Shown here piece by piece: positions 438 to 63,438 of a stretch of DNA of 64,000 bases (within the stretch, counting starts at the first letter, position 1; the number at the start of each line of letters is the position of its first letter). The translations under genes were made by a program, and so were the position numbers. The DNA comes from Zingiber officinale (taxonomy: Eukaryota > Streptophyta > Magnoliopsida > Zingiberales > Zingiberaceae), in the NCBI RefSeq assembly GCF_018446385.1, contig NC_055996.1, forward strand, positions 16,355,317 through 16,419,316, in the 5' to 3' direction. The notes under the pieces were generated by a model. That model ran no database searches. It was not told the DNA's origin and saw only the letters and a program-made list of their open reading frames with translations.

Positions 438-574
438 GGCGCCTTAAACACATTGAAGGCGCCTTGAATGATTGTTTAAGGCGCCTTGAGCAGTCCAGTT
501 TGACCGTTTGCGCTGCGGATAAAGTTTTATCCGCAGATCGAGTTGGAGGCGCCTTAAACCTTATTGGAGGCGCC
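438..574 (+). promoter_or_regulatory. GGCGCC palindrome array in LTR U3
   Basis: GGCGCC occurs at 438, 458, 480, 548 and 569, each within a longer palindrome such as AAGGCGCCTT or GGAGGCGCCTT. Spacings are 20, 22, 68 and 21 bp. The last copy ends about 30 bp before the TATA box. A role as promoter-proximal binding sites is inference. Confidence 0.6.
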
Positions 575-604
575 TTGGACCCTCGAGATAGACTTTCCAG
601 GAGC

Positions 605-612
605 TATAAAAT
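605..612 (+). promoter_or_regulatory. LTR TATA box
   Basis: TATAAAAT lies directly downstream of the GGCGCC array, in the position expected at the U3/R boundary of this LTR. Confidence 0.6.
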
Positions 613-993
613 GGCCCCTGGAGCTAGGAATTCAACAACAACTCAAGCAATCATTGTGTAGCCATTCCTAGCAATAGTTCTAAGCTTCCAAAGTGTAAAA
701 GGCTTCTCCGCCTTCAGCAAAGGAGATTTTTCTACTGAGCTTTTTCTTACTGCCCTGGATTAACAACCTCCTTGGTTGTAACCAGGTTAAATCCTGTTTT
801 CTACTTAATTTCTATTTCCTTGCTTGGTTTAATTTTATTTCTGCCTTTACTTTATTTACTATTGCATTAATTGAGTTGAAATCCGAGGAGGGTATTTTTA
901 TTTTGTGTTTTCAGCAATTCACCCCCCTCTTGCCGGCCTCCGCTGCACCAACACTTGTATCCGGGCGTAGAGTTGGGTAGCCGTTTCACCTTC

Positions 994-1389
994 CTACAAT
1001 TTAATATTGTATAATTTATTAAAAATTAAGTCCCTCTTACTTACCTTGGTATCAGAGGTCCCTTCGTGAAGCTCGATCAGCTTCTCCCATAGCTCCTTGG
1101 CGCTCGAGAATGGGCCGACGCGGTTTAGCTCCTCCTTCGTCAATCCGCACTGGAGGGTGCACGTTGCTCTGGCATTTGCCTCCACCTTCTTGATTGTTAC
1201 TGGTTCCCAATTTTCGCAGGGTGTTGGTTTGCCATCTCCGTCAGTTGGTAGTTCAAATCTGGTCTTGACGATCATCCACATCTCGAACTGGATCTTTAGG
1301 AAGTTCTCCATTCTACCCTTCCAGTAACCAAAGTCCTGTCTGGTGAAGAGCGGGGGATGGACAGTGCTGTAGCCTTCTTGTTGGGCCAT
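994..1389 (-). pseudogene. copia gag N-terminal fragment
   Basis: This is a 131-residue frame starting MAQQEGYS. It contains the gag pattern of plant copia elements: the aromatic DFGYWKGRMENFL segment near residues 19-31 and ELWEKLIELHEG near residue 100. It starts about 260 bp downstream of the primer site at 1637-1648 on the same strand, which fits a gag start. It ends after KLYNIKL, far short of a zinc knuckle or protease, so the element is truncated here. Beyond it lie a short AT-rich stretch and then the solo LTR. Confidence 0.75.
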
Positions 1390-1636
1390 TTAGATCTAAC
1401 ACAGAAAAATAACAAAAGAATATCCCAGGACTTGATCCTGGATTAGTAGTGCGGTATGAAAATAAGGGTAAATTACATTCTTGAGTGGTGTTGCACCGAC
1501 TTCGAGAAAAGATTTCGATAACGAAAAGAACTTGATCAGAAAATAGCAATTATGCTAAATCCAATCAACTCTGTAAAATAGAAAACACCACGAAAGAAAT
1601 GCGTGATTGGTGGTTGCACCAGATCAACGCTACCCC

Positions 1637-1648
1637 GCTCTGATACCA
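1637..1648 (-). other. Primer-binding site, initiator-tRNA-Met type
   Basis: On the minus strand the sequence reads TGGTATCAGAGC, complementary to the 3' end of plant initiator tRNA-Met. It lies 2 bp inside the LTR boundary at 1651. It shows that the LTR at 1651-2941 is a 5' LTR of a minus-strand element. Confidence 0.85.
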
Positions 1649-2061
1649 ATTGTTGAATCGAGATGCACTAGAGGGGGGGTGAATAGCGCTCGTGGCTTTC
1701 ACACGATTCAGATTCGAAAATCGTTCGAGTAAATGTAGCGGAAATAGAAAGAAAAACAACACACGAACACAAGCTATTTACTTGGTTTGGAGCCTAGGAC
1801 GACTCCTACTCCAAGGCCTGCGATCGTTGATCGCTTTCTGTGGGCAACAATCATATCGTGCAAATTCAGTTACAAAAGTATTACAGTTTAACAGTATTAA
1901 ACGTTGTACCGACAACTAAAATTGAAGATTTGAAGCTCTGGGTCGTCGGGCACTTGTAGCAGCACTTCTGGATCGTCTTGTTCGCAGCACACAAGAGAAG
2001 ATTGCTTTTGAATTCGTTGTATCAACCTGCTGCTCGAATACCCCTTTTAAACAGTGTTGGA

Positions 2062-2246
2062 GGCGCCTCAAAGCCCTTCCGAGGCGCCTCAAAGCAGCCG
2101 AGTCAGCCGCGTGGATCAGCGCTGAAATCTTCTCCTCTGATCCACTTGAAGGCGCCTCCAAGCTGCGGTCCAAGGCGCCTCCAGCTATACCGCAGAGACT
2201 TTAGCTCCTTTGCACTCAAGGCGCCTCCAAGCTCCATGGAGGCGCC
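2062..2246 (-). promoter_or_regulatory. GGCGCC palindrome array in LTR U3
   Basis: GGCGCC starts at 2062, 2083, 2151, 2174, 2220 and 2241. These form three pairs with internal spacing of 21, 23 and 21 bp. The nearest copy is about 10 bp from the minus-strand TATA-like box at 2044-2051. Confidence 0.6.
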
Positions 2247-2531
2247 TCGGACACTGTTCATCCGAGGCTGGCCTTGCTCATTTGTCATTGCAAAGAATGT
2301 TAGTTCACAAAACACACACATACCCTGCAAGACAAAGTTAGCACTCATAAAATATAGTAAAAGCAGTATTTGATAGTCGTTGGACTGTCCGGGTCTGACT
2401 TCGGATCTCCGACCGGAAACTCTAGGTCGACCCGACGCCTATTGTTCCCTCTACGGGGAGCGCGTACTCACCTACTCCCCTCATAAGAGATTACCTGATG
2501 TCAGTCCAGTCCTCGAGACTGACTGAACTTT

Positions 2532-2820
2532 CTGCCTAAGGTTACCATCCCCTAGGACATAGAGTTACCGCTCCCTAGGGTTTTTCTCCACCTAGGGTTA
2601 CTACCCCCTAGGACCTAAGGTTACCCCCCCTTAGGATTTTTCTCCACCTAGGATTACCACCCCCTAGGACCTAAGGTTGCCGCCTCTTAGGGTTTTCCTC
2701 CACCTAGGGTTACCACCCCCTAGGACCTAAGGTTGCCGCCCCTTAGAGTTTTCCTTCACCTAAGGTTACCTCCCCCTAGGACCTAAGGTTACCACCATTT
2801 AGGATTTTCACCTGCCTAAC
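2532..2820. repeat. 56-bp minisatellite inside the LTR
   Basis: A unit containing CACCTAGGGTTAC and CCCCTAGGACCTAAGG repeats with a 56-bp period, anchored at about 2588, 2644, 2700 and 2756, with degenerate copies at both ends. The units are rich in CCTAGG. Confidence 0.8.
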
Positions 2821-2941
2821 CGCAGTTAGGACTTTCCTGAAACACTTATTCAAGTACGTTAGACAACAATTAATCTTAACTTTGATCCCTTTGTCATTAT
2901 CAAAACTCGGGTTCGATCGTCGGATGCTTTCTGCACCAACA

Positions 2942-3579: not shown

Positions 3580-4472
3580 TGTTGGTTGCTACTCGGAAAA
3601 CCTATAGGTTCCACTGTACAAAAATTTTGTACAAAGGTCTGAACCTTTTCCTAGCTACCATGTGTTCTTTTAAATTAAATTTTGGATCGCCTGCGGAACT
3701 TAACACGTTTGATCCAAAACTTAATCTATTTGTTCTTTTAGGTTTTGACTTGGATCTCCTGCGGAACTTAACACGTTCGATCCAAGTCACCTTAAGTTAT
3801 TAATTCCATTAAATATTAATTTCCATAAAAGGTTCCCAGTACTGACGTGGCGAGGCACATGGCCTTCTTGGATATGGGAGCAACCACCACCGACTAGACA
3901 AAACCTTTAATAGAAAGCCAATATTTAATTTCCTAAAATAACTTTAGGTTAACCAAAAGGAACAATCAAATCACAAGGAAAAGAAAGAAACAAAAGAACA
4001 CAACTTCGAAAAACATATTCGAAATTCTAGAACGTAAGCCTCTTGTATTTGGTATTATTTCCATAAATAACTAGCATGATGCGGAAATAGAAATTACTAG
4101 TTATACCTTGTAGAAAAACCTCTTGATCTTCTACCGTATTCCTCTTCTAACCTCGGACGTTGTGTGGGCAACGATCTTAGACGAGAAACCACCAATCACC
4201 TTCTTCTCCTCCTAGCTAGGTTCGGCCAACAAAGAGGAAGCTTCACCAAGGAAGAAAAACAAAATACTAACCAAGCTCCAAGAGATGCTAGCTTTCTCTC
4301 CTTCTTCTTCTTCTTCTTCGAGTAGTATCCGGCCACCACAAGAGCTCCAATAGAAGGGTAGGGTTCGGCCACCACAAGAGGAAGAGAGGGAGAGGTTGGT
4401 CGGCCACACCAAGGAACAAAAGAGGGAGAGGAATAATAGATGTTGTGTCTTGTGAAGGCACCCTCACCCCTT

Positions 4473-4480
4473 CTTTTATA
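4473..4480 (-). promoter_or_regulatory. LTR TATA box
   Basis: TATAAAAG on the minus strand, conserved at 11906-11913 and 19259-19266 in the other two LTRs. Transcription would start shortly below 4450. Confidence 0.5.
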
Positions 4481-4923
4481 TTCCTTGGCCTAGGTAAATT
4501 AGGAAATTTAATTACAATAAATTTTCCTTAATTTCCTTGACATGATTTAATTGAGAGAAATAAAATAAAATTTCCCCAATTAATTTCAAGTGGCCGGCCA
4601 TCATTGGATTACAAAAGAGGACAAGTTTTAATCAACAATTAAAACTTCCTAATTTGTTTCCGGAAAAAATAAAATTTCTCTTTAAAATCTCTTCATGGTT
4701 GATAAAAGGAAATTTCTATAATTTTAATTTTATCAACATGTGAATAATTTTTAAAGAAAAAATAAAACATCTCTCCAATCTACAAATAAGGAAAGAGATC
4801 TAATCTCTTTCTTTAATCTTTTGTAGATCTTTTACAAGAGAGATATTTTAATTTTAATTCTCTTTAAAATATATCTTCCACATAATAATAAAATTTAAAA
4901 TTAAATTTCTTTTTAATTTTATT

Positions 4924-5010
4924 TGGCCGGCCCTACTAGCTTGGGTTCAAGCTAGGGCCGGCCACCCATGACCGGCCCTAGCTTGATCCCAAGCTAGCTT
5001 GGCCGACCCC
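4924..5010. repeat. GGCCGGCC hairpin cluster in the LTR
   Basis: Positions 4924-4963 can fold as GGCCGGCCCTA against TAGGGCCGGCC, with an inner AGCTTG/CAAGCT stem. A second, looser inverted repeat (CTAGCTTG/CAAGCTAG) follows. The cluster recurs near 12,358-12,450 and 19,710-19,795 in the other LTRs, with small changes. Confidence 0.65.
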
Positions 5011-5974
5011 TATTGGTGGGTATGAAGGTGGGTATAGGTGGGTATAGAACTCTATAAATAAGAGGCTACGATAGGGACCTAGAGGAGGAATTGGTTTTGG
5101 TCTCCGATAAAATTAAGCATCCGTGTTCGCCCAACACACAACTTAATTTTATCAATGATAATTCATTCCACTAGAGAACTATCATTGAACTACCGCACCA
5201 ATCCCAAATTATATTTTGGGCTCCTTCTTATTATGAGTGTGTTAGTCTCCTGTGTTTAAGATATCGAATGTCCACTAATTAAGTGAGTTCGACAACTCAT
5301 TTAATTAATGTCTAAGTCCAAGAGTAGTACCACTCAACCTTATCGTCATGTCGGACTAAGTCCACCGCAGGGTTTAACATGACAATCCTTATGAGCTCCT
5401 CTTGGGGACATTATCAACCTAGTATCTCTAGGACACAGTTTCCTTCTATAATCAACAACACACACTATAAGTGATATCATTTCCTAATTTATCGGGCTTA
5501 TTGATTCATCGAACTAAATCTCACCCATTGATAAATTAAAGAAATAAATATCAAATATATGTGCTTGTTATTATATTAGGATTAAGAGCACACACTTCCA
5601 TAATAACCGAGGTCTTTGTTCCTTTATAAAGTCAGTATAAAGAAACGACCTCAAATGGTCCTACTCAATACACTCTAAGTGTACTAGTGTAATTATATAG
5701 TCAAGATAAACTAATACCTAATTACACTACGACCTTCTAATGGTTTGTTCCTTTCCATTCTGGTCATGAGCTACTGTTTATAATTTATAAGGTACTGATA
5801 ACATCATCTTCTGTATGTGACACCACATACTATGTTATCTACAATATAAATTAAATGAACAACTACAAACAAATGTAGATAATTAGACCAAATGTGATTC
5901 TTTATTCATAATGAATGTTTACAAAGCTTAGGCTTTCAGTATACACTCCAACAATCTCCCACTTATACTAATGA

Positions 5975-6988
5975 CTAAGCTGCCATATCTTCTACCATAC
6001 ATCTGATTCTCATTCCCTCCACATACCGATCGAAAGCTTTTGCCGGAAGGGCCTTAGTGAAAGGATCTGCCAGGTTATCCGCTGATGCAATCTTGGCGAT
6101 GACAACTTCTCCTCGCTTCACGATATCTCTTATCAGGTGGTACTTGCGCTCTATATGTTTACTTGCCTTATGGGCTCGTGGTTCCTTCGAGTTTGCAACT
6201 GCACCGCTGTTATCACAATAAATTGTGATGATTTTGGGTAAACCAGGAATCACATCTAAGTCCATTAGAAAGTTCCTGAGCCATACTGCTTCTTTAGCTG
6301 CCTCAGAGACTGCTACATACTCAGCTTCCATGGTTGAGTCCGAAACGCATTTCTGCTTAACAATCCTCCATGAAATGGCTCCACCTCCTAAAGTAAACAC
6401 ATAGCCTGATGTAGACTTACTGTTATCCCTATCTGATTGGAAATCTGAATCCGTGTAACCCAAAGGGAGCAGATCGTCTGCTTGGTAAACTAGCATATAA
6501 TCTCTAGTCCTTCTCAGGTACTTTAATATATGCTTTACCGCAGTCCAATGTCCTTGTCCAGGGTTACTCTGATATCTACTGACCATGCCCACGACAAAAC
6601 AGATATCAGGTCTTGTACATAGCATTGCATACATTAGGCTTCCTACAGCTGAAGCATAAGGAACTACTTTCATGTCCTCTATCTCTTTCGATGTCTTTGG
6701 AGACATCTCTTTAGATAGAGCTACTCCATGTCTAAAAGGTAAGAAACCTTTCTTGGAATCCTGGATGCTAAAACGAGCAAGGATTGTATCTATATATGAA
6801 GCTTGGGACAGACACAACATTCTTTTCTTACGATCCCTTATAACTTTGATCCCAAGAATGTGTGCACAATCTCCTAAGTCCTTCATATCAAATTGTTTGG
6901 ACAACCATACCCTTACGTCTGATAATACCTTGACATTGTTGCCAATTAACAAAATATCATCTACGTATAGTACAAGAAATACCACCAC
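5975..6988 (-). CDS. copia reverse transcriptase and RNase H (unit 1)
   Basis: An open 337-residue frame, the C-terminal part of the unit 1 polyprotein. The reverse transcriptase signature LYVDD is at residues 7-11. RNase H follows, with YTDSDFQSD near residue 178, the serine- and glycine-rich SKSTSGYVF stretch, and STMEAEYVA. It ends about 20 bp from the polypurine tract. The frame continues upstream of 6988 for some codons before breaking in the damaged segment. It copies element RNA into DNA in the cytoplasmic particle. The frame is open as far as read, but the unit as a whole is interrupted. Confidence 0.85.
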   Translation of the reverse strand: MVVFLVLYVDDILLIGNNVKVLSDVRVWLSKQFDMKDLGDCAHILGIKVIRDRKKRMLCLSQASYIDTILARFSIQDSKKGFLPFRHGVALSKEMSPKTSKEIEDMKVVPYASAVGSLMYAMLCTRPDICFVVGMVSRYQSNPGQGHWTAVKHILKYLRRTRDYMLVYQADDLLPLGYTDSDFQSDRDNSKSTSGYVFTLGGGAISWRIVKQKCVSDSTMEAEYVAVSEAAKEAVWLRNFLMDLDVIPGLPKIITIYCDNSGAVANSKEPRAHKASKHIERKYHLIRDIVKRGEVVIAKIASADNLADPFTKALPAKAFDRYVEGMRIRCMVEDMAA

Positions 6989-8134
6989 GTTTCCGTTACA
7001 CTTCTTATATACACAAGACTCATCCGGACTTTGAATAAATCCATATGACTGGATTACTTCATTAAACCGGATGTTTCAAGACCTTGAAGCTTGCTTCAGT
7101 CCATAAATGGACCGATTAAGCTTGCACACTAGATGCTCTTTGCCTTTTTCAATGAACCCTTCCGTTGCTTCATATGGATGTTCTCTTCAAGACTTCCATT
7201 AAGGAAAGTGTCTTGACATCCATTTGCCAAATCTCATAATCCATATGAAAGCAATGGATAAGAGTATCCGGATAGATTTAAGCATGGCTACCGTGAAAAG
7301 GTTTCCTCATAATCGATTCCCTCTTTCCGAGTGTACCCTTTCGCAACAAGCCTAGCTTTGAAGGTTTCTACCTTCCCGTCATCCCTCTTTTTCTTTGTAG
7401 ATCCACTTGCATCCAACGGCTTTTACACCATCGGTGGTTCTACAAGCTCCGGACCTTATTAGAGTACATGGACTATATTTGAATTCATTGCCTTTTGCCA
7501 AGATCGCATCTATATCTTGGAGTGCTTCATCATATGTCCGGGGATCAGTTCATGTTTACCCGGAATCAAGTCCAAGTCTCTCCCAAAAACATGAATCTTT
7601 CAGTCGCCTCACAACCCTCCCACTACGACGAGGTACCATCTGTGGTTGTGCATCATGTGTGACACGTGTTGCATCTCTTGTGGTACTTCATCTTGTACCG
7701 TTGGTATTGAAGTAGACATGTCCTCTCTAAGTTCTTCTAAAACAACTTTACTCTTGGGCTTGTGATCCATTATATAGTCTTCTTCTAAAAACGGGCATTG
7801 GTGCTAACAATGACCTTCTGTCTTTAGGACTATAAAATAAACCACCTTTCATTCCTTTAGGATATCCTACAAACACGCGAACTTCGACGAGATTCTAACT
7901 TATCAAGATCTGTTTTCAGCACATGTGCTGGACTACCCCAAATCCGAATATGTCTTAGACTGGGTTTTCGCCCATTCCACAATTCTATGGGAGTAGAAGA
8001 AACTGATTTAGAAGGTACTAAGTTCAGAACGTATACTGCTGTTTCCAGAGCATATCCCCAAAACGAATTTGGTAATTCTGAATAACTCATCATCGATCTA
8101 ACCATCTCCATAAGAGTCCTATTCCTTCGTTCTG
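6989..8134 (-). pseudogene. Damaged integrase C-terminus and RT N-terminus (unit 1)
   Basis: This segment should join the integrase core to the reverse transcriptase, but it is broken by many 1-3 base indels. A recognisable piece is 7857-8111 (ELPNSFWGYALETAVYVLN, the integrase C-terminal region). Compared with 14,400-15,530 in unit 2, the two copies are damaged at different points, mostly at CTG or CAG. The damage may be sequence error rather than true decay. Confidence 0.7.
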
Positions 8135-9922
8135 CTACACCATTCTGTTGGGTGTTCCAGGTGCAGACAATTGGGATTGAATCCCAGCCTCTGATAAGTA
8201 ATTCCTAAACTCTCCTAAGAGGTATTTGCCACCACGATCAGATCGTAGTGTCTTGATACTTTTACCTAATCGTTTCTCCACATCAGCCTTGTATTCTTTG
8301 AACTTGTCAAAGCATTCGGACTTGCGGCGCATTAGGTAAATGTATCCATATCTTGAATAATCGTTTATGAAAGAGATAAAATATTCAAAACCTCCTCTTG
8401 CCTGGACAGACATAGGACCACACAAATCAGAGTGAACCAACTCTAACACTTCTTTAGCTCTATACCCCTTGGCCGTGAACGGCCTCTTGGTCATTTTACC
8501 TTCTAAGCAAGATTCACAAGTTGGAAAATTTTCCAACTCTAATGAACTCAAAATTCCATCGGCTATAAGCCTCTGAATCCTACTTAAATTAATATGACCA
8601 AGTCTTAGATGCCAAAGATATGCTTGGTTCATTTCTGAAGGTTCTTTTCTCTTATTAGAATTAGAAGATGAGTTATAAATTTCCATGTTTTGCTTTGTGG
8701 AAGAAATTGGATTTAAAATATACAAATTGCCAACTAATGCACCAGAACAGATAATCACTTTATTTCTTTTAATAACTACATCGTTACTGAAAGAAACTGA
8801 ATATCCATCTAAAAACAGTTTAGAAACTGAAATTAAATTCTTTCTAAAACTGGGTACATAAAGACAATTTCTTAAAACCAAATTTTTATTTCTACTAAAA
8901 GATAAGTAGACGTCTCCCACTGCAACAGCTGCCACCTTAGTAGCATTGCCCATGTAGACGGTAATCTCCCCTTCAGATAGTCGTCGGGTTTCCTGGAACC
9001 CCTGCAAGGAATTGCAGACATGATCAGTGGCTCCCGTATCTACACACCAGGTGCTGGTAGATAACACCGCTAAACATGTTTCAACAACTAGAGCATGAGA
9101 TATACCTTTGTTTTGGTTCCTACGAGGACAATCCGCCTTCCAATGTCCTGCCTGCTTGCAGATGAAGCACTTGCCCTTCGGCTTCTTCACTCCAGCTTTA
9201 AATCCCGTACTCTGAGATTTATTCACTTTCTTTGCTGAACCAGCTTGTTTCTTCTTCTTCTTTCCTCTCGGTTTAGAAGTAGAACCATTTTCAGCATAGT
9301 GAATTTGAGCATTGTGACGAAATAATCCTTCTGCTGCTTGAAGTTCTGTCAGTAGTTCCCCTAATGAATAAATCCTCTTATTCATATTATAGTTCAGGCG
9401 GAACTGCTCAAAACTTCTAGGTAGCGTTTGGAGGATCATATCGATCTGGGTTTCCCCATCAATTTCTCCTCCAAGGATCTGTATCTCGTTTAGATAAGCC
9501 ATCATGTTTAGGATATGATCCCTTACAGGAGTACCCTCTTGCATGGTGGCTGTCATTATCTTTCTCATAGCTTCTTGTCTAGAAGCCCTATCCTGATGAC
9601 CAAAGAGTTCCTTGAGATTGTTCATAATATCATAAGCTGTTGGTAAATCTTTATGCTGATGTTGCAATACATTTGACATTGAAGCCAAAATGTAACACCG
9701 CGCCATCTCATCTGACTTTACCCATCTCTTATAATATTCAATCTCCTCTTGGGTAGATTCACCAGTGGGTGCATCAGGACAAGGTTCAGTCAGTACAAAT
9801 TTATAGCTTTCAGCAGTCAGAACAATATCCAGGTTTCTTTTCCAATCTATGTAATTTGGTCCAGTAAGTCTATTTTGTTGAAGTATGATGGACAGTGGGT
9901 TGAAAGTCATCCTAAGAATCAT
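8135..9922 (-). CDS. copia gag-protease-integrase (unit 1)
   Basis: An open 595-residue frame. Gag covers residues 1-250, with YIDWKRNLD near 24-32. A CCHC zinc knuckle lies at 252-265 and the aspartic protease motif DTGATDHVC at 295-303. The integrase zinc-binding segment (H-H, then CESC near 469-472) precedes the core Asp of HSDLCGP at residue 499 and the second Asp in LRSDRGG at 562. The frame ends at TPNRMV where the conserved glutamate region should follow. The start ATG is about 1.1 kb from the 5' LTR, giving a long leader. Confidence 0.87.
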   Translation of the reverse strand: MILRMTFNPLSIILQQNRLTGPNYIDWKRNLDIVLTAESYKFVLTEPCPDAPTGESTQEEIEYYKRWVKSDEMARCYILASMSNVLQHQHKDLPTAYDIMNNLKELFGHQDRASRQEAMRKIMTATMQEGTPVRDHILNMMAYLNEIQILGGEIDGETQIDMILQTLPRSFEQFRLNYNMNKRIYSLGELLTELQAAEGLFRHNAQIHYAENGSTSKPRGKKKKKQAGSAKKVNKSQSTGFKAGVKKPKGKCFICKQAGHWKADCPRRNQNKGISHALVVETCLAVLSTSTWCVDTGATDHVCNSLQGFQETRRLSEGEITVYMGNATKVAAVAVGDVYLSFSRNKNLVLRNCLYVPSFRKNLISVSKLFLDGYSVSFSNDVVIKRNKVIICSGALVGNLYILNPISSTKQNMEIYNSSSNSNKRKEPSEMNQAYLWHLRLGHINLSRIQRLIADGILSSLELENFPTCESCLEGKMTKRPFTAKGYRAKEVLELVHSDLCGPMSVQARGGFEYFISFINDYSRYGYIYLMRRKSECFDKFKEYKADVEKRLGKSIKTLRSDRGGKYLLGEFRNYLSEAGIQSQLSAPGTPNRMV

Positions 9923-11013
9923 AAATAACTTTTGGTCAGAACTCTAAATTTAGAATAATATTGATTTCTCAAACAATACTATTTTAAATTAACCAACACC
10001 TCATAACACCGTGAATTTTGTATGCCACGTTAGTGTGGACGTATACAATTTCAACATTTGTAAAAGGAGGGTTTTAACCCATTAATTTTATTATCTTGTC
10101 AACCTAACTTTTTGACAAATAAAATTAATAGTTGGTATTATTTGGTCTCACAAATAATAACAGTGACTCAGTTGGGGAGGATACTATTAGATGTGTCTAA
10201 GTGTTCACCATTACTTGACACTAAGTCCATTAATAAGATTATGCCCCTTCCGTTGGGGAAGATCACACGCTCTTGATTAACTTCCTATAATTATCCAGAA
10301 ATGGAAGTCTGTTCTAGTGATCCGCAAACAAGCTCATTCGTTATGGAGGAAGGCACTCAGAGCCAACGCGCAAGCTTGTTTGCATCACTTACAAACCAGT
10401 AATGGAGACCATGGGATTTACTTAAAAATCCCTCTCCCACTTAGTTATTTACAAATGAGGAATTTTAACTATGCTAGCCTACCAAACTTGTAAACTAACA
10501 TGCACACACAGCACAATATAAAAGCAATAAATAGAAAATCTAATTTTCAACTATTATGGCTTTTATCTTTAATTGTCCTCCGTGTGTTGTCATCAAAATT
10601 TGGCCACCGCCACCGGGTCTAACTGTCGCATCCATCTTGCTCCGAGTTCCGCTGCGCCTCTGGTCCTTAGAAGGTTCCACGCTTTGCGAGATTCGATCCG
10701 CGACATAAATAGAATTTTACATTTTTGATCCTATATTCCATAAAAGGAATGTACATGTATCTAGATCAAAAATAAAATCCTAATAAAACTAAATACAACT
10801 CCTGCTGTATTTTAATACAATCATGCACACATATAAATTGCCCTTGACATGTCCAAGGGTCCAATCACACACATAATTAACTAAAAGCCATAATAGTTGG
10901 ATCCTGCGTCCATAGAGTTAGCACATCCTACTATTAACGCCTAAATTATGTATGACATGCATAATTAAACTAAATACCAAATACGCAGAGGCAAACCCTA
11001 GCTCGATACAAAT
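9923..11013 (-). other. Untranslated leader of copia unit 1
   Basis: About 1.09 kb with no long frame, between the 5' LTR (LTR 2) and gag. The primer site next to LTR 2 reads GCTCGATACAAATT on the plus strand, a damaged form of the GCTCTGATACCAATT seen at the end of unit 2. Confidence 0.7.
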
Positions 11014-13403
11014 TGTTGGTTGCTACTCGGAAAACCTATAGGTTCCATGTCAAAATTTTGTACAAAGGTCTGAACCTTTTCCTAGCTACCATGTGTTCTT
11101 TTAAATTAAATTTTGGATCGCCTGCGGAACTTAACACGTTTGATCCAAAACTTAATCTATTTGTTCTTTTAGGTTTTGATTTGGATCTCCTGCGAAACTT
11201 AACACGTTCGACCCAAGTCTCCTTAAGTTATTAATTCCATTAAATATTAATTTCCATAAAAGGTTCCCAGTACTGACGTGGCGAGGCACATGGCCTTCTT
11301 GGATATGGGAGCAACCACCACCGACTAGACAAAACCTTTAATAGAAAGCCAATATTTAATTTCCTAAAATAACTTTAGGTTAACCAAAGGAACAATCAAA
11401 TCACAAGGAAAAGAAAGAAACAAAAGAACACAACTTCGAAAAACATATTCGAAATTCTAGAACGTAAGCCTCTTGTATTTGGTATTATTTCCATAAATAA
11501 CTAGCATGATGCGGAAATAGAAATTACTAGTTATACCTTGTAGAAAAACCTCTTGATCTTCTACCGTATTCCTCTTCTAACCTCGGACGTTGTGTGGGCA
11601 ACGATCTTCCGAGACGAGAAACCACCAATCACCTTCTTCTCCTCCTAGCTAGGTTCGGCCAACAAAGAGGAAGCTTCACCAAGGAAGAAAAACAAAATAC
11701 TAACAAAGCTCCAAGAGATGCTAGCTTTCTCTCCTTCTTCTTCTTCTTCTTCGAGTAGTATCCGGCCACCACAAGAGCTCCAATAGAAGGGTAGGGTTCG
11801 GCCACCACAAGAAAAAGAGAGGGAGAGGTTGGCCGGCCACACCAAGGAACAAAAGTGGGAGAGTAATAATAGATGTTGTGTCTTGTGAAGGCACCCTCAC
11901 CCCTTCTTTTATATTCCTTGGCCTAGGTAAATTAGGAAATTTAATTATAATAAATTTTCCTTAATTTCCTTGACATGATTTAATTGAGAGAAATAAAATA
12001 AAATTTTCACAATTAATTTCAAGTGGCCGGCCATCATTGGATTACAAAAGAGGACAAGTTTTAATCAACAATTAAAACTTCCTAATTTGTTTCCGGAAAA
12101 AATAAAATTTCTCTTTAAAATCTCTTCATGGTTGATAAAAGGAAATTTCTATAATTTTAATTTTATCAACATGTGAATAATTTTTAAAGAAAAAATAAAA
12201 CATCTCTCCAATCTACAAATAAGGAAAGAGATCTAATCTCTTTCTTTAATCTTTTGTAGATCTTTTACAAGAGAGATATTTTAATTTTAATTCTCTTTAA
12301 AATATATCTTCCACATAATAATAAAATTTAAAATTAAATTTCTTTTTTAATTTATTTTGGCCGGCCCTACTAGCTTGGGTTCAAGCTAGGGCCGGCCAAT
12401 CTCATACCTAGGCCGGCCCTAGCTTGATCCCAAGCTAGCTTGGCCGGCCCTATTAGTGGGTATAGAAGGTGGGTATAGGTGGGTATAGAACTCTATAAAT
12501 AAGAGGCTACGATAGGGACCGAGAGGAGGAATTGGTTTTGGTCTCCCGATAAAATTAAGCATCCCGTGTTCGCCCCGAACACACAACTTAATTTTATCAA
12601 TGATAATTTATTCCACTAGAGAACTATCATTGAACTACCGCACCAATCCCAAATTACATTTTTTGGCTCCTTCTTATTATGAGTGTGTTAGTCTCCCTGT
12701 GTTTAAGATATCGAATGTCCACTAATTAAGTGAGTTACTGACAACTCATTTAATTAATGTCTAAGTCCAAGAGTAGTACCACTCAACCTTATCGTCATGT
12801 CGGACTAAGTCCACCTGCAGGGTTTAACATGACAATCCTTATGAGCTCCTCTTGGGGACATTATCAACCTATTATCTCTAGGACACAATTTCCTTCTATA
12901 ATCAACAACACACACTATAAGTGATATCATTTCCCAATTTATCGGGCTTATTGATTCATCGAACTAAATCTCACCCATTGATAAATTAAAGAAATAAATA
13001 TCAAATATATGTGCTTGTTATTATATTAGGATTAAGAGCACACACTTTCTTAATAACTGAGGTCTTTGTTCCTTTATAAAGTCAGTATAAAGAAACGACC
13101 TCAAATGGTCCTACTCAATACACTCTGAGTGTATTAGTGTAATTATATGGTCAAGATAAACTAATACCTAATTACACTACGACCTTCTAATGGTTTGTTC
13201 CTTTCCATTCTGGTCGTGAGCTACTGTTTATAATTTATAAGGTACTGATAACATCATCTTCTGTATGTGACACCACATACTATGTTATCTACAATATAAA
13301 TTAAATGAACAACTACAAACAAATGTAGATAATTAGACCAAATGTGATTCTTTATTCATAATGAATGTTTACAAAGCTTAGGCTTTCAGTATACACTCCA
13401 ACA
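11014..13403 (-). repeat. Copia LTR 2 (shared middle LTR)
   Basis: A 2390-bp LTR serving as 5' LTR for unit 1 and 3' LTR for unit 2. It begins TGTTGGTTGC and ends CACTCCAACA. No target duplication borders it, as expected for a shared LTR. TATA at 11906-11913 on the minus strand. Confidence 0.87.
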
Positions 13404-40017: not shown

Positions 40018-45608
<5,591 letters not shown>

Positions 45609-53244: not shown

Positions 53245-53273
53245 GAGGAAGGAAGGAAGGAAGGAAGGAAGGA
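53245..53273. repeat. GGAA microsatellite
   Basis: Seven GGAA units, about 140 bp upstream of the epsin ATG (TTCC on its coding strand), probably in its 5' UTR or core promoter. Confidence 0.85.
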
Positions 53274-55205: not shown

Positions 55206-55610
55206 TGTTGGATCGGAAATTCACTAGAGAGAGAGAGAGAGAGGGGGGGGGTGAATAGCGATCGTCGAAAAACTCAATCTAAACTTTAAGTTACGTAGCA
55301 GAAAATGGAAGCAAAAGAAAGCAATGCTAACACAAGTTGGTTTTACTTGGTTTGGAGCCTTTGACGACTCCTACTCCAAGGCCCGCACTCGTCGAGTGCT
55401 TTCGTTGGGCAATCCATTAATAGTTCGAAAGGTTACAAATTAAGTATAGGAACTATATATAAAAATTATCGAGAATAAGAAACTAAGTAAAGCTAAAGTC
55501 CGGTTGTCGGTGGAGTGCGGGAGCCTTTTCGGAGCATCGAGTAAGAAAGAAACTTGTAGTAGTTGTTGTTCTGAAGCTCCAAGTCGAAGGCCTTTAAATT
55601 GTCCATTCCG

Positions 55611-55776
55611 GGCGCTTAGAACGCCTCTGGGCGCCTAGACCACGTGGCTCGACCAATCGACGCTCTCTACATAGGCTTGTAGATGATTTTTCAGGTCCGG
55701 GCGCCTGGACTGAGTCCGGACGCTCGGACCACCTGGGCGCCCACGGCTCCATCTGGATGATCCTGGTCCAGGCGCC
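55611..55776 (-). promoter_or_regulatory. GGCGCC palindrome array in LTR U3
   Basis: GGCGCC or one-base variants start at 55,611, 55,630, 55,700, 55,718, 55,736 and 55,771. Several are in GGGCGCC context. The array adjoins the TATA-like box at 55,591-55,598. Confidence 0.5.
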
Positions 55777-56103
55777 CGGACCCCTTTTCTTCAGCTTATC
55801 CTCCTGCAAGAAAAGATTAGTTTAGGCAATCAAAAAATATATTTTACCCTGTAAAACAGAGTTAGCATAACATAATAAAATGGGAGTATTAATTAGATCC
55901 TGTCTTCACGAGACCAGAACCTAGTCAAGATCTCAACTTAGGTTTTCCAAATGAACTTAAGTTGGATCAACACCTACAGTTCCCTCAACGGGGAACGCGC
56001 CCTCACTAGATCTCTCCTCCAGTTGCTTACCTTCACTTACCACTTGCAGTCACTTGACTTGCCTCTGACCCACCAAGTCTTTCTGCCAGTTGTCAAGTCT
56101 GCA

Positions 56104-56255
56104 GACCCAACTGGACTTCTGTCGATTGTTAGGTCCCAGGGACCTAACCGGACTTCCTGCCAGATATCGGGCTCCGCGGACCTATCTAGACTTCCCACTA
56201 GCTATTGGGCCCGACGGACCTAGCTGGATTTCAACATGGTGTCAGGTCTCTCAGA
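56104..56255. repeat. 37-38-bp minisatellite inside the LTR
   Basis: Units anchored by GACCTAACCGGACTTC-like sequence start at 56,104, 56,141, 56,179 and 56,217. Confidence 0.7.
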
Positions 56256-56363
56256 CCAGTAAACTTTTGCACACTTGGTAAAGTAGTTAGACAAACAATA
56301 CATCTAACTTTAACCTATTTGTCATATATCAAAACCAGATTATTAGTGTAACTTGCAATAACA

Positions 56364-58389
56364 ATATCTCTCTTTTTATGTATTGACAACCTGAGTTAAA
56401 ATTTGGAAAAAGATATAATAAAGTAATAAAGTAGATAATGCAGCATTAAGCATGAAATTTTAAAATGGGTTGATTTTTTCTAACCTAATCCACTATCCTC
56501 CCCCTTTGACATACATCAAACAAGATAAATGTATAGGGCATAAATAAAGATTTAACAAAGAGAATTTTTGCAACCTTAGTTTTTCAAACAAGGTTTCAAA
56601 CAATGATGTTAAGAACTTTTAATAGTTATAAAAACTAGTGTTTGAAAACCTAACAACTTCAAATAGAAAATGCTTATCTTTTAAAAGAAAAATTTTGGAA
56701 GTAATGTTTTAAAAAAAAACTTTACACAGGTAAAGACTCAGGTTTATTATAGTGAAGAATAAAAAATTTAAAGTAATTTGAAAGTAATCTTTTTAAAATT
56801 TATAAAAGATTTTCAAATAAGTTCAAAGAATGTAAATATTTTTCAAGAGAGTTTTCAAAAAAGTATTAAAAACATGTTTAAATGCATAATTTAATAAGTG
56901 ATTTTCAAAGGATAAGTTAACGCAGTTTTTAAAAACACTTTCTAAGTTATCCATTTTCAAAGTAATTTTTTAATTTTTAAAAAGTTTAGTCTCTTTAGAT
57001 TTTTAAATTTTGAAACATTGCAATAATTTTGAAAAATATTTTCAAAGAGAAGAAAATTAATTTTGAATTATTTTATATTTTTCAAACAAGATTCAACATC
57101 ATGTTATAAGAATTATTATATATTTTTAGGCAAATTTTAGACGAGTTTTTTCAAATCGATGTTTCAAAGAAATTTAGCAAATTAATTTTGAAAATATTAT
57201 CAAATGTATTTTAGAATAAAGTAAAAATATTTTTTAAAATAATTTTGAAGAAAAATTTTTTATGAAAGATTTTCAATGTAAGTTTAAAAATAAATTTAAG
57301 GTAATTTTATAGAAAATATTTAAGAAAGATTTTCAAAGTGGAAGAAAAAATTTCCAAAAAATGATTTGATTTTTTCAAAAACTTTCTCAAAGTAAAATTT
57401 TTTTCATAAGTTGCAGTTTTTTTTTTAAAAAAAATCCACATCAATGTTTCAACATATTTTCAAAATAATTGAACTCTTTCTCCCCCTTAGGTTAACACTC
57501 CCCCTTAAATTATACTAGGGTTTAAACATATTAAATTGAACACATTTTTAAGGCCCTTGCTACCCCTTAACCTAGCACCTTCTAGTTATCTTTGTTAGCA
57601 ATAAGGATTTTTATTTTAATGTCTAGGGAATTTACTATTTTTAACACAAATGTTCATCAAATATATTATTTACACCTTATTATGATTGTTCACTTAAGTT
57701 TGATTAATCATTAATAAAAAAAGTAACCTTAGATTTAGGTGTATTAAGTTAAAATTAAGTTTTAGGTTAAATGAAATAATTTATTATTAATTCAATAATA
57801 GTTAATCATTATTAATAATTTATTGATTAACTTTTACTTGACTCAATTTAATAATTTAATACTTATTTGATTAAAACAACTTACATTTCATATTAACTGA
57901 TTGAGTTAATTGACTAATGAATGAAAGTATTTGTTTTAATTTTAAGTTTTGATTAAGTTTAACTTAAACAAATTATTGATTAAAGTTAAGTTAGGATTAA
58001 CTAAGTTGTAAATTTGAATTAATTCAAAGTTAAATTTGTTAAAGTTAGTAAACAAGTTAAGATTCAATTTAGGTCAATCTTTAATTAATATAAATTATGA
58101 TTAAATTAAAGTAAAGTTAAGATTTTTTATTAACGTTGAAATCAAAATTGATTAAGTTAAATTAAGGTTAAGCATTAATTAACTTGTAAACTCAAGTTTG
58201 ATTTAAAATGCATTGAGTAAAGTTAGTGTTTTAATTTGATTAAATTATGGTATATATCAAGTTAAGTAAAATCTTAAATAATCTTAGACTAAATAATTAA
58301 ATTTTAATTATTTACTTATTAATTTTTTAATTGGGTTTAAAGTTTAAGAGGATTGAATTTTGATCATTTGTTAATAAAGATTTAAGTTT
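56364..58389. other. AT-rich internal region of the copia element
   Basis: Starts with GACAACCTGAGTTAA and, at about 56,500, TCCCCCTTTGACAT. Similar phrases occur just inside the LTR at 62,442-63,438. It then becomes AT-rich, with AAGTTAA-type monotony from 57,600. No gene. Confidence 0.5.
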
Positions 58390-59870
58390 TAAGTTAAGTG
58401 TTTTTTCTTAAAGTATTTTTTTTTAAAAACAAAATAAAGGATTTTAAATGAATTTTTAAAATAATTTTAAAAGTATTTTTAAAAGAATTTTTTAAAATAA
58501 ATTTAAAAGGATTTTTAAAATATTTTTTAAAGGATATTAAAAATCATTTTAGAAAGTATTTTTGAAAGAATTTTTAAAATAATTATTAAATTATTTTCAA
58601 AAGAATTTTAAAAATCAAATTTAAAAGGATTTTTAAAATAATTTTTAGAATATGTTTTAAAAGGATTTTGAAAATAATTTTTAAAACAATTTTCAAAAGG
58701 ATTTAAAAAATAAATTTTGAAAATAATTTTTTAAAATAATTTTTAAAGTATTTTTTAAATAATTGCTTAAATAATTTTAAAAATAATTTTAAAAGGATTT
58801 TTAAAAGAATTTTTAAAGGTTTTTAAAAAGAATTTTTGAAAATAAATTTTAAAAGGATTTTGAAAATAAATTTTTAATGAATTTTTTGATTAATTTTTAA
58901 AATATATTTTTAAAAGATTTTAAAATGATTTTTAAAGGATTTTAAAATAATTTTTAAAAGATTTAAAAAAAATTAAAGGATTTTTTTTTAAATTTAAAAC
59001 GATTTTTAATATAAATTTTGAAAATAAATTTTGAAAATTTTTTAAAAATAATTTTTAAAATAAAATTAAAAAGGATTTTGAAAATAAATTTCTAAAAGAT
59101 TTTTAAAATAATTTTTAAAGGATTTTCTAAAAAATTTTAAAATAATTTTTAAAAGGATTTTTAGAAGAATTTTTAAAAGGATTTTTAAAATAATTTTTTA
59201 AATAATTTTTTAAAAGATTTTTGAAAGTATTTTTTAAAATAATTTTATAACGGATTTTTAATATAATTTTTATTGGATTTTTAAACGAATTTTTTATAGG
59301 ATTTTTAAAATAATTTTTGAAGGATTTTTAAATAATTTTTAAAATAGATTTTACAAGGTTTTAAAAATAATTTTTAATGGATTTTTAGAATACTTTGTAA
59401 AAGTATTTTGAAAATAATTTAAAATAAAAATTTTAAATATTTTTAAAAATATTTTCTATAGGATTTTTAAAATAATTTTTAAAGGGTTTTTTAAATAGTT
59501 TTTAAAGGATTTTTATAATAATTTTTATATGATTTTAAAATAATTTTTAAGGGATTTTAAAATAATATTTAAAAGAAATTTTAAATCTTTTAAAATAATT
59601 TTGAAAGGAATTTTATAATAATTTTAAAAATAAATTTTAAAATGATTTTGAAAATAAATTTTTAAAATAAAATTTCAATCGATTTTTTTATTAATTTTTA
59701 AAACAATTTTTAAAAGAATTTTGAAATTAATGTAATATAAATTTTTAAAGGATTTTTTAAAATAATTTTTTAAGGATTTTTAAAATAATTTTTAACGTAA
59801 ATTTTAAAAGGATTTTGAAAATAATTTTTGATAATATGTTAAGTAATATATGTTTATTTAATTTAATCGT
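58390..59870. repeat. Degenerate AT satellite-like tract
   Basis: About 1.5 kb built almost only from variants of AATTTTTAAAAGGATTTTTAAAAT with an irregular period near 20-30 bp. C is nearly absent from the plus strand. No frame of note. Confidence 0.7.
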
Positions 59871-60176: not shown

Positions 60177-61751
60177 TGATGTCTTATTCATAGATGAAAC
60201 TCATATTTACATCACATTTTCATGCATTGTATTTATTCTTAGACTTAATTACAAATTATCTTACTATTGTGTTATTTGATGCTAATATTTTATTTTTATT
60301 TTGCAGGCATCAAAGATCTTGGTTTCAGATTAATATGAACCAAATTTGTGCTCGAATTGGAGTTCAAACAAGACGATCAGGCTTTAGAGTAATTTGGACC
60401 ATCCATCCAAGTTCAAGAGAGATATGAGCTATTCATCGAAGATCTACTCCATCCGAGCCATATGGAAGTAGATCACAGCCATTGATGAAGATCTAGAGCT
60501 TTTGATCTAAATCTGAGATGTTTGGACCATTGATCAAAATGGAGGAATTCTAGATCGTCCGATCAGATTGGAAGTTTATTTAAAAGCCGTGAGAAGCTAC
60601 AGTGATCTAGGTGCTCGGGCGTTTTCTCTTCTCGTGATTTTTCTGTAGTTCACCTTCTTCCCCGTTGCTCTCGTTCACCATTCCAGATCCAAGAGCAAGT
60701 CTTCTCCACCGACGGCGATCTCTGAGTTGCCGACGTTCATCATCCGAGGTCAGAGAGTGGCATAGGGACGTACCCCAATCCGCGAGATTGATTTCTATTC
60801 ACTGCCACATTCCAGATCGAGGGAGGTTCCCAATCTGTGATTTTCGCCATCCAACGGAGCTTGAAGGGAGGTACCCAGGAGTTTCCGATGCCATTCTGAT
60901 CTTCATTCCGCAGTGATACTAAACCGATTTGATTAATCAATTTGGTTAAGCGATTCACATAATTCATCCTCTATTCTTCGAGTGATGAGATTGCCAGCTG
61001 ATTGTGTGCTTGAAGGGAGGTACTTAGGAGCCGTGAACGTCGTCTGATAATAGTTGGGAGCTTGGACATTCTTCGTTGGATGCTTGAAGGGAGGTACTCA
61101 GGAACATTTCTGTGTCACAACAGAGTGAATGGAGTTTGATCTCAGGTTTGGGATGTGGAATTGTTTTGTTTTTGTTTACCTTTGATTTCTAATACCCTTG
61201 CTCAGATTTGATGATCTGATAGCATAGTTTGCAATTTACTTTCTATTTTGAACTTTCCATTTCGTTTACTGAAAATTTGTTTAGTTAGTTATTGAGTTTA
61301 GCAAACCCTTGTTCTGTTCAACTAATCTGTTGTAATTGTGATTGAACTTAAATATTGAATGTTTAGTTGTGCTTTTAATTGTTTACCTCTGTTATATGTT
61401 GTTGATTGTGACTTGATGATCTATCAATTGATTTACTTAATTCAATGATGCATTAAAATTTGAACTTTATTGTTGCTAATATGATGAGATGATAGTGATC
61501 ATGAGAGCTATTTCTATGGATAGGGAGATAGAGTTCCATATTCATTCTGCTGAATTGGCAAGATTAATTTAAAGTTGATATGAAAACCTAAAAATAGATT
61601 TGAATCTAGAATTCACACACATACTTATTAGTTATCCTTGGAAAAAAAAATGACTTGGGACTCCTTAGTACAACTCTTATCTTTAGTTTCAATGGGTTCT
61701 AATCTTTATTAATTTTGAAGTGTCTAGTGACATGTAAAATGGACCACATCA
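60177..61751 (+). mobile_element. 5' LTR of a Ty3/gypsy element (Tat/Athila type)
   Basis: Begins TGATGT and ends ACATCA, which are inverted, giving 1575 bp. Seven bases inside its end lies a tRNA-Asp-like primer site. It contains three dispersed copies of GCTTGAAGGGAGGTAC (60,859, 61,009, 61,082). Short open frames within it are not genes. Confidence 0.65.
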
Positions 61752-61757
61752 AAATTT

Positions 61758-61770
61758 TGGCGCTGTTGCC
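61758..61770 (+). other. Primer-binding site, tRNA-Asp type
   Basis: TGGCGCTGTTGCC matches, with one change, the TGGCGCCGTTGCC site that Tat and Athila gypsy elements use. Confidence 0.75.
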
Positions 61771-61994
61771 AAGGAACTATATCTAGTAGTGTGTGTTTAT
61801 TTTAGATTGTGTATTGGTTGGTTTCCTTTATTTAGCATCTTTATTGATTTTATTACTTATCTTTTTGTATTTCCATGTTGACTTATTATTGAATTGTCAA
61901 GTTCTTTAATGTTCATATATTCATGTATTTGAAACTATATGCTCCTGAGTCTTCTAATATTGAAGTAGTGTAAGAACAAGAGATTTCTTTTAGC

Positions 61995-62441
61995 ATGGAT
62001 CCATATTTTTCAGCATTTTAGAGGTGGAATGGAGAGTCAGTATTTTCAGTTTGAGCATGAATTTTATCCAATCATGGATCAACAAAATAGGTATGAGTTA
62101 TTCTCTAATACTTATAATTCTAATTAGGTGGATCGCTCACATTTAAGGTATGAAAATGCACAAGGACCATTTATTGAGCCAGATCCAGCCTAACAGAATT
62201 CATATGGGTTTCAAGAGAACGATCCTCAATTTGAAGAGTCAACATAGAAAATCAATAAGATTATGCAACAAATGAGAGAACATCAAGAACAACAATTTGC
62301 AAGGATATAGAATATACAGATTCAATTAGATCAAATTGCCTTATCCATCAACCAGCTACAAACACAAAACTCCAGTAGGGAGATGGAAAGTAGAGATTAT
62401 GTTAGGCCTGACCCTACTTCCATTACTTCACAAGAATTTTC
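61995..62441 (+). pseudogene. Ty3/gypsy gag relic with multiple stops
   Basis: One frame runs from ATG at 61,995 (MDPYFSAF) through EHEFYPIMDQQNRYEL, then MQQMREHQEQQFARI and QLDQIALSINQLQTQ to EFSIRS, where the copia LTR begins. It is interrupted by six in-frame stops. Five are TAG and one is TAA, each at a place where CAG or CAA (Gln) would make sense. Gln-rich coiled-coil-like gag. It is cut at 62,442 by the next LTR. Confidence 0.65.
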
Positions 62442-63438
62442 TATTAGATCATAGAGCTCGCTAGAGGGGGGGGATAGCGATAAAAAAAATATCGTAGCAA
62501 AATCGAATCGAGTACGCAACGGAAAAATAAAAGACACAATGCTAACAACACCAATTTTACTTGGTTCGGAGCCTTCGTCGACTCCCACTCTAAGGCCAGC
62601 ACTCGTCGATTGCTTTCGTTGGACAATCACTAATAATTCACAATAAGTACAAGAATTTGTAACAAAGAGATTACTGACAACAATAAAATAAAGACTTAAA
62701 TTGCTGGTTGTCGGAGAAGCTTCACAGCGTAGCAAGAGCGTCTTGGAAGCAGCGTGCACGAGAGCAGACGTAACAGAAGTTCTTGTTCTCAGCTCTGATG
62801 GAGGTCTTCTTTTATAGAAGTGCTCCGGGTGCTTGGATCCGTTTTGGGCGCCCGAACCGTGACGTAGGTCCGGCCAATCAGCGCGCTCCTCGTTGTGACA
62901 GGATAGAGTTTTGCCTTCGGGGCGCCCGGATCGATTCCGGGCGTCCGGACCAACTCCCGGCGCCCGGATCCCTTCCGGGTGCCAAGACCACCAACTTCCA
63001 CAAAGTCCTTCTCCTGCAAGAAAATGTTAGTCCGAGGTAAAATAAAAGTTATACTACCCTGCAAGACAGAAGTTAGCATAATTATAATAAAAGAATAGTA
63101 ATTAAATTCCATCTCACCGAGACCAGAATCTAGTCACGATCTCAATTTAGATTCCCGAAATGGTTCTAAGTTGAATCGACACCTACTGTTACCTCGAACG
63201 GGGAACGCACCCTCACCAAGTCACTCTCCTCCAGTGACTTACCTTAACTTACTTGCCAAACGTCTGGTCAGTCCGTCGACCCGTCTAGACTTCGTGCCAG
63301 CTATCAGGTCAGTCCGTCGACCTAGCTGGACTTCTCTTGCACACTTATTCAAAGTATTAGATCACAACGAGACCAACTTAACCTACTTTTCCATTCATCA
63401 AAACTTGAGTTAGACCATTAGTGTTAATCACACCAACA
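62442..63438 (-). mobile_element. 3' LTR of a copia element inserted in gypsy gag
   Basis: A 997-bp LTR, starting TATTAGATC (TG changed to TA) and ending CACCAACA. The minus strand immediately inside reads AAAAAGGGGGAGAT, a polypurine tract, so the body lies to the right and leaves the window. TATAAAAG on the minus strand at 62,809-62,816. Shares the GACTCCCACTCTAAGGCC block with its relatives. It interrupts the gypsy gag and so is the younger of the two. Confidence 0.78.
62828..62983 (-). promoter_or_regulatory. GGCGCC palindrome array in LTR U3
   Basis: GGCGCC or one-base variants start at 62,828, 62,848, 62,921, 62,940, 62,959 and 62,978. Spacings are 20, 73, 19, 19 and 19 bp. Flanks read CCGGGCGCCCGG, another palindromic form. 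TATA lies 12 bp away. Confidence 0.6.

Follow-up and report, generated by a model that had tools for sequence, protein, structure and literature searches.

The long terminal repeats (LTRs) of Sirevirus elements are known to carry arrays of a repeated motif (RM), a palindrome that lies in the unique 3' (U3) region upstream of the TATA box (Bousios et al. 2010, PMC2829016). As described there, the RM palindromes are CpG-rich, occur in multiple copies with diverged flanks, vary among elements while their symmetry persists, and form clusters that are reported as CpG-island borders. In maize, a palindrome of Copia/RLC LTRs (CACCGGACNNNGTCCGGTG) is attributed to Bousios et al. 2016 (PMC10760457), and Sirevirus palindromes are reported to be small-RNA hot spots (PMC5311732, PMC10760457). 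Here, comparable arrays are described in a window of 64,000 nucleotides from ginger, Zingiber officinale (contig NC_055996.1, C11:16355317-16419316; "the window" denotes this whole stretch), in which four LTRs, A to D, carry arrays built on the hexamer GGCGCC. Arrays of this kind are already known for Sirevirus LTRs, of which the GGCGCC form is a variant, and the ginger arrays are very probably Sirevirus RM arrays in that form. The overall reading favoured here, at a probability of roughly 0.55, is that the Sirevirus GGCGCC array acts next to the promoter as a set of sites for a dimeric host factor.

The ginger arrays share with the RM arrays the multi-copy, CpG-rich U3 palindromes above TATA, the diverged flanks, and a symmetry that outlasts variation of the motif. 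They differ in the core, which is CGG-CCG in 12 of the 13 motifs described (the exception is Tnd-1) and an invariant GGCGCC in ginger, where the CGG-CCG signature is present in 16/67 distinct linkers between cores (15/26 G/C-arm and 1/28 A/T-arm linkers). They also differ in copy number: in the 2010 paper each 3' LTR has 3-14 copies of the motif and each element no fewer than 8, whereas the window LTRs have 3-6 exact cores. With the maize palindrome they have in common a dyad of the CCGGA-N3-TCCGG type, with a 3-nt centre, found in LTRs of Copia/RLC and able to form hairpins (PMC10760457). In contrast to it, adjacent dyads in ginger share one GGCGCC and thereby make a chained ladder, and the A/T-arm class is mostly without CCGG. 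In a narrow literature search, the GGCGCC core, the fixed TATA plan and the second, inter-core dyad were not found in print. Tnt1 is said to stand outside Sirevirus in the 2010 scheme. Compared by description, Tnt1 and other copia U3 repeats likewise place repeated, partly symmetric cis-elements by the promoter (PMC3601003, PMC2829016).

Identity and abundance of the GGCGCC arrays

The four LTRs are of the Sirevirus type (Ty1/copia). Their coordinates, as proposed by a first-pass annotation of the window, proved correct and are bounded by TGTT...CAACA in LTRs A, B and C and by TGTT...TAATA in LTR D; LTR A is on the plus strand and the other three are on the minus strand. The poly-C signal CACCCCCC is found at 920 (+) in A, 1674 (-) in B and 55246 (-) in C, with no match in D. 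LTR A is flanked by a 5-bp target-site duplication (CTTGT, 17-21 and 954-958), and a gag-like stretch past LTR B scores 26.1 bits against Retrotran_gag_2 (E 6.9e-06), slightly below the 27-bit cut-off. No primer-binding site (PBS) was found beside the window copies of LTRs C and D, and the flanks of LTR C matched neither a PBS nor an intact polypurine tract (PPT).

Genome-wide copies were sampled for families A (28 copies, 96-100% identical, the window copy counted in) and B (30 copies, 82-100% identical); for the C and D types, evidence beyond the window consists of pattern matches and consecutive array places. The U3-end junction GGGGGAGAT/TG was present in 14/28 A copies and 10/30 B copies, as well as at LTR D, and the U5-end junction reads CA/AGTGGTATCAGAGC in 9/28 A copies and ATTGGTATCA in 12/30 B copies. 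At the remaining copies different DNA adjoins the LTR, as happens on the outer side of any LTR. In the published account of Sirevirus junctions, a PPT octamer is followed by AT/TG at the 3' LTR, and the 5' LTR meets a Met-tRNA PBS at CA/ATTGG (or G at the second place) (PMC2829016). The junctions of the A and B copies match these, which argues for the Sirevirus assignment. Additionally, 7 of 11 triple-bearing loci (of 15 fetched, 3 kb context) have a PPT or PBS junction when up to 3 mismatches in 15 are allowed for the PPT and up to 4 in 18 for the PBS; one of the seven (L066) is supported by a 3-mismatch PPT alone.

By blastn, LTRs A and B share one 17-bp match, LTR A aligns with neither C nor D at E 0.001, and LTR B aligns with C over 118 bp at 78% and with D over 71 bp at 80%. 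The same kind of array is thus present in LTR types that are otherwise little alike.

The window contains 21 GGCGCC hexamers, 18 of which are inside the four LTRs. LTRs A, B, C and D have 5, 6, 4 and 3 exact cores, whereas dinucleotide shuffles (1000 per LTR, the baseline for core and strict-palindrome counts) have means of 0.25, 0.22, 0.11 and 0.09 and in no case reach the observed number; the remaining units of the arrays are degenerate. Therefore, the GGCGCC clusters noticed by the first-pass annotation in U3, just upstream of TATA, are real. Its count of five or six cores per LTR holds for exact cores in A and B and requires one-mismatch cores in C and D, and two of the sites that it quoted as GGCGCC, at 62940 and 62978, are actually GGCGTC and GGTGCC. 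Perfect symmetry about GGCGCC spans 6-10 bp, the longest palindrome around any core in the window being 10 bp, and the two quoted 12-mers (GGAGGCGCCTCC and CCGGGCGCCCGG) are absent from it. The suggested palindrome excess over shuffles was borne out for the GGCGCC count, but for strict palindromes it is weak or lacking: those of at least 8 bp number 5, 10, 9 and 9 in A to D (234, 20, 18 and 13 of 1000 shuffles as high), and those of at least 10 bp number 3, 5, 4 and 0 (43, 9, 26 and 1000 of 1000). The proposed distance of 10-35 bp between cores and TATA does not hold as stated, since the closest exact core starts 36, 16, 37 and 36 bp from the TATA or TATA-like box (those of B and C are TTTAAA-type, read from sequence) and the arrays extend ~150-195 bp upstream of the box.

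The arrays are abundant throughout the 3.09-Gb assembly (211 contigs), in which matches were compared with those to the same pattern written backwards, a control of equal composition. Triples, that is three GGCGCC with linkers of 12-18 bp, occur 28,485 times versus 61 in the control. Core pairs were counted at spacings of 13-17, 18-22 and 28-32 bp and at 19 bp alone. Those at 18-22 bp number 123,148 versus 432, a 285-fold excess and an average of one per 25 kb, with 44,961 versus 176 at exactly 19 bp, as compared with 10,937 versus 578 at 13-17 bp and 3,802 versus 369 at 28-32 bp. The spacing enrichment that the first-pass annotation had put forward as a check is thus found genome-wide.

Spacing, promoter plan and symmetry of the units

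The units fall into two classes by their arms, G/C arms (CGGGCGCCCG, class C) and A/T arms (AGGCGCCT, class T), and the spacing was compared between these among 50 triples and 80 pairs, which are the first places of one contig and not a random sample. G/C-arm intervals are 19 bp in 30/37 cases among the triples and in 22/26 distinct linkers among the pairs. In contrast, the 37 A/T-arm intervals of the triples are 20, 21, 22 and 23 bp in 7, 14, 4 and 12 cases, respectively, and 28/28 A/T-arm linkers of the pairs are at 20-22 bp, 23 bp being beyond that search pattern. Mixed arms account for 11/85 intervals in the triples and 13/67 distinct linkers in the pairs, and 66/85 intervals in the triples are odd-numbered. 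Spacing therefore tracks arm type and is not set by two helical turns. The first-pass annotation had taken the spacing to be close to two such turns, which describes the A/T-arm arrays at 20-23 bp but not the G/C-arm arrays, mostly at 19 bp; no phase is common to both, and two-turn phasing is ruled out as a general rule.

The arrays follow a recurring plan, which consists of a distal cluster, a gap, a proximal pair, and a TATA box that begins 16-17 bp past the last core start or else lies another one or two units away. Gaps and TATA register were tabulated for 29 of 49 listed array places, chosen for having an 18-22 bp pair, many of which may belong to the same few families, so that the loci are not independent. 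This choice guarantees the 18-22 bp peak in these places but does not dictate the gaps: among 88 neighbour intervals, gaps of 78-81 bp recur 15 times, 65-68 bp eight times and 90-92 bp five times. TATA[AT]A is offset from the last exact core start by 16 or 17 bp at 12 loci, by 36 bp at five and by 57 bp at one, or at 18/29 places in all, with an expectation of 0.074 per offset; three of these 18 loci have a second TATA[AT]A on the opposite strand, at 65 bp. The offsets of 36 and 57 bp would correspond to one and two units further, as though the last unit had decayed. Within the sampled families, among plus-strand loci (13 B and 5 A minus-strand loci are outside the count), TTTAAAAG or TTTAAA is present at 16 or 37 bp in 10/16 of family B, and TATAAA at 36 bp in 2/2 of family A.

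Two dyads alternate along the arrays, one on GGCGCC and one on the centre of the linker. In 26 units, the arms about the core are complementary at 76/130 positions, compared with 53.6 when arms are dealt across families (0/10,000 as high) and 72.2 when dealt within them (1,897/10,000). Arms are thus interchangeable inside a family, and the symmetry is a property of the array rather than of unit-by-unit compensation. The earlier impression that the arms drift yet stay palindromic is accordingly upheld across families and not from unit to unit within one. Larger samples show both dyads: 80 distinct core-centred arm pairs match at 210/400 positions (164.3 re-dealt), 34 distinct linker-centred pairs at 103/170 (76.2), and 67 distinct linkers from the listed pairs at 218/335 (153.6), with 0/10,000 re-dealings as high in each. 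Set against each other, the linker dyad scores 145.5/240 and the core-centred dyad 132. At positions 5-8 the match rate is 0.575 for 57 linkers, 0.506 for 85 edge cores, 0.484 for 16 inner cores and 0.457 for 41 lone cores, this last being a raw figure without a shuffle baseline; the difference of 0.069 between linkers and edge cores is not significant (95% bootstrap -0.019 to 0.155). The linker dyad was considered as the sole real unit, which is not established.

Within arm classes, the class T linker dyad covaries in register (97/172 versus 79.5 expected, 7/5,000), with shifted registers at 51 and 46 versus 46.7 and 46.8, and does so among the listed pairs as well (72/112 versus 59.0, 19/10,000). 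The signal weakens as similar arms are thinned, to 25/48 versus 17.3 (46/5,000) and then 13/24 versus 8.1 (131/5,000). The class C linker has no such covariation (65/128 versus 60.9, 1,086/5,000). For the core dyad, within-class covariation is absent or weak in the 29 array places (C 66/128 versus 61.5; T 42/100 versus 42.9), and the unthinned values are 89/196 versus 88.1 in class C and 106/220 versus 94.2 (229/5,000) in class T. A positive class C result after thinning (30/64 versus 21.7, 40/5,000) is not relied on, because one shifted register is also high when all cores are used (65/184 versus 48.2, 20/5,000). The outward arm seen most is CGGAA, and the G/C-class linker therefore often reads CGGAA-N3-TTCCG, near the maize palindrome. 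Accordingly, the GGCGCC units may represent the same ladder as the published CGG-CCG motif, read from a different centre.

Copies of the two sampled families differ in how well the cores are kept. In family A, exact cores occupy all five positions in most or all copies (Table 1) and two copies have an extra unit, for 4 to 6 exact cores per copy. The family B alignment has eight unit positions, each exact in 9 to 20 of 30 copies, for 2 to 6 exact cores per copy and six in the window copy. The core decays like methylated CpG: in family B, the CpG of the core survives in 63.5% of 211 cells, as against 73.0% for other CpGs, whether in the array region or elsewhere in the LTR, and 78.4% for arm CpGs, and in the young family A the values are 97.1% for core and 95.8% for other CpGs. 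Non-CpG conservation in family B is slightly higher in units (0.958) than in array spacers (0.932) and the rest of the LTR (0.943), whereas the corresponding values of family A (0.992, 0.987 and 0.992) do not clearly differ.

Other features of the window

Table 1. LTRs, cores and boxes of the four GGCGCC arrays (positions in the window; PPT, polypurine tract).
Feature	Positions	Strand	Details
LTR A	22..953	+	solo LTR, Sirevirus type, nested in gag region of element B
LTR A distal cluster	438..485	+	GGCGCC at 438, 458, 480; exact in 28, 28, 26 of 28 copies
LTR A inverted repeat, 11 bp (CTGCGGATAAA / TTTATCCGCAG)	513..536	+	in 68-bp gap between clusters; read from sequence
LTR A proximal pair	548..574	+	GGCGCC at 548, 569; exact in 28, 25 of 28 copies
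LTR A TATA box, TATAAA	605..610	+	36 bp past last core start
LTR B	1651..2941	-	5' LTR of Sirevirus-type element; CAACA/ATTGGTATCAGAGC junction at 1651
LTR B TATA-like TTTAAAAG	2044..2051	-	16 bp past last core start; read from sequence
LTR B proximal pair	2062..2088	-	GGCGCC at 2062, 2083
LTR B middle and distal cores	2151..2246	-	2151, 2174, 2220, 2241
LTR C	55206..56363	-	68% identity with LTR D across 767 bp (blastn)
LTR C TATA-like TTTAAAGG	55591..55598	-	candidate, read from sequence
LTR C exact cores	55630..55776	-	55630, 55700, 55736, 55771; degenerate GGCGCT at 55611-55616
LTR D	62442..63438	-	3' LTR; PPT/LTR junction GGGGGAGATTG at U3 end (63437, minus strand)
LTR D TATA box	62811..62816	-	36 bp past last exact core start; 17 bp past degenerate GGTGCT (62828-62833)
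LTR D cores	62847..62983	-	exact 62847, 62921, 62959; degenerate GGCGTC 62940, GGTGCC 62978

The 11-bp inverted repeat of LTR A is paired in the predicted RNA fold. Some LTR A copies are paired on the same strand, ~3.0 kb apart (contigs C17, C11, C10, C6 and C2; for instance C17:5406748 and 5409768). This spacing points to a non-autonomous element whose LTRs enclose only ~2.1 kb. In LTR B, a 56-bp tandem repeat of four to five copies, 80-87% alike, occupies the upstream part of U3 (2535-2814). In the inter-cluster gaps of LTRs C (55640-55657) and D (62860-62878), an ACGT-core site (CCACGTGG; TGACGTA), as read from the sequence, lies near CCAAT; such sequences are typical of bZIP and NF-Y sites, so a compact core enhancer may lie between the clusters of the C and D arrays.

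Beyond the four LTRs, a copia element forms a tandem head-to-tail series at 3580-20743 with a period of ~7.35-7.45 kb (11014-20743 aligns with 3580-13404 over 9,882 bp at 96%, and 18363-20743 with 3580-5954 at 98.4%), as is expected from LTR-LTR exchange. A compact copia-like element at 28632-32380 has direct repeats that are 99.5% identical over 426 bp, with a gag-pol-like minus-strand frame of 912 aa between them, and is probably a recent insertion. An AT-rich minisatellite of ~1.5 kb, in which the period is 12 bp, lies on the right-hand side of LTR C (~58327-59800).

Possible roles and origins of the arrays

Under the favoured reading, the array would serve as a promoter-proximal enhancer, in which a dimeric host DNA-binding factor occupies successive inverted half-sites and drives the adjacent TATA box. 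The TATA register, the symmetry across many copies, the conserved core and the family-specific arms argue for such a factor, and the apparent symmetry of lone cores fits protein sites; that binding it is the main role of the array is put at about even odds. New LTR families might then emerge through coupled shifts in arm sequence and unit length that perhaps track the host factor. A partial search of the literature on LOB-domain palindromes and GGCGCC-binding plant dimers gave nothing usable for naming the factor; LBD, E2F and ERF proteins are tentative leads. Several observations weigh against a dimeric factor. Two spacings, 19 and 20-23 bp, disfavour one rigid multi-site complex, TATA[AT]A is absent from the fixed offsets at 11/29 array places, and inside a family the two arms around a core show no unit-by-unit covariation. 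In addition, core CpGs in family B decay at least as much as other CpGs, so that there is no clear protection of the core in the copies, and a ladder of RNA hairpins fits the same data.

In such a ladder, neighbouring cores and the intervening arms (GGCGCC-arm-N3-arm-GGCGCC) would pair into stems of ~10-11 bp closed by 3-nt loops once U3 is present in a transcript, either at the RNA 3' end or by read-through from the 5' side, and the hairpins would serve the element or be processed into small RNAs by which it is silenced. At a spacing of 17, pairs such as GGCGCCTTCAAGGTGAAGGCGCC make 10-bp stems with 3-nt loops, within-class covariation in register is clearest at the linker dyads (class T), and the small-RNA hot spots at maize Sirevirus palindromes point in the same direction (PMC5311732, PMC10760457). 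Predicted folds are strong for LTRs A, B and C (z scores -6.8, -8.7 and -3.8; equalled or bettered by 0, 0 and 1 of 200 shuffles) but weak for D (z -1.6, 10/200), and folding is not independent evidence because any palindrome array folds well. RNA hairpins do not predict the TATA register or the apparent symmetry of lone cores, and the linker dyads are not significantly above edge cores in symmetry; as the main explanation they are possible but doubtful. A mutational origin is improbable as a full account. It holds that units of ~19-21 bp multiply by slippage or unequal exchange, and that template switching during replication or reverse transcription renders the arms complementary, with no selection for symmetry. 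Units are indeed gained and lost among copies, arms are common to the units of a family rather than unit-specific, and template switching is able to generate hairpins in RNA genes and to preserve them (PMC8794818). However, the GGCGCC core is constant in LTR types that are otherwise little alike, and the recurring gaps and TATA register are unpredicted by a neutral process, although common descent of the arrays could explain part of this recurrence. For the arms, symmetrisation by template switching competes seriously with the favoured reading; for the core and the TATA register it does not.

That the arrays are CpG-rich islands whose methylation state governs LTR activity is very improbable. 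The association of RM clusters with CpG-island borders in the 2010 paper is in its favour (PMC2829016), as are an observed/expected CpG ratio of ~0.7-1.3 in 200-bp windows across the arrays and a G+C content that in LTRs B, C and D is highest in or close to the array. The ratio elsewhere in each LTR is equal to or above the array value, however; array windows of C and D are high in both G+C and CpG ratio, and other parts of A and B are likewise. Moreover, the core CpGs of family B decay to TG/CA as fast as others or faster, which is the usual mark of methylation and indicates no special state. Chance clustering of GC-rich sequence without meaning is hardly credible: LTR A lacks an excess of palindromes of at least 8 bp and LTR D has none of at least 10 bp, but the 285-fold genome-wide excess of pairs, the excess of triples and the failure of any shuffle to reach the core count of any LTR refute it. 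A composite of these ideas is unlikely. It supposes that the LTR promoters are ladders of chained, hairpin-capable palindromes sharing GGCGCC rungs, that the arms are rewritten as hairpins serve as copying templates in reverse transcription, and that selection keeps the TATA-locked register and the core. Arm sequence and unit length (the period being 6 plus two arms plus 3) would then change in step on both sides.

If this composite were true, cis-regulatory sites would diversify through self-copying, faster than by point mutation. Given the abundance of the sites, any factor that binds the arrays has an enormous pool of them in the ginger genome, and small RNA from the arrays, if made, could act on many families together. 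For the favoured reading of a dimeric host factor, the partner of the Sirevirus motif becomes testable through the recurring TATA register and the existence of two arm classes, which predict one specific site, two spacings and a fixed distance to TATA.

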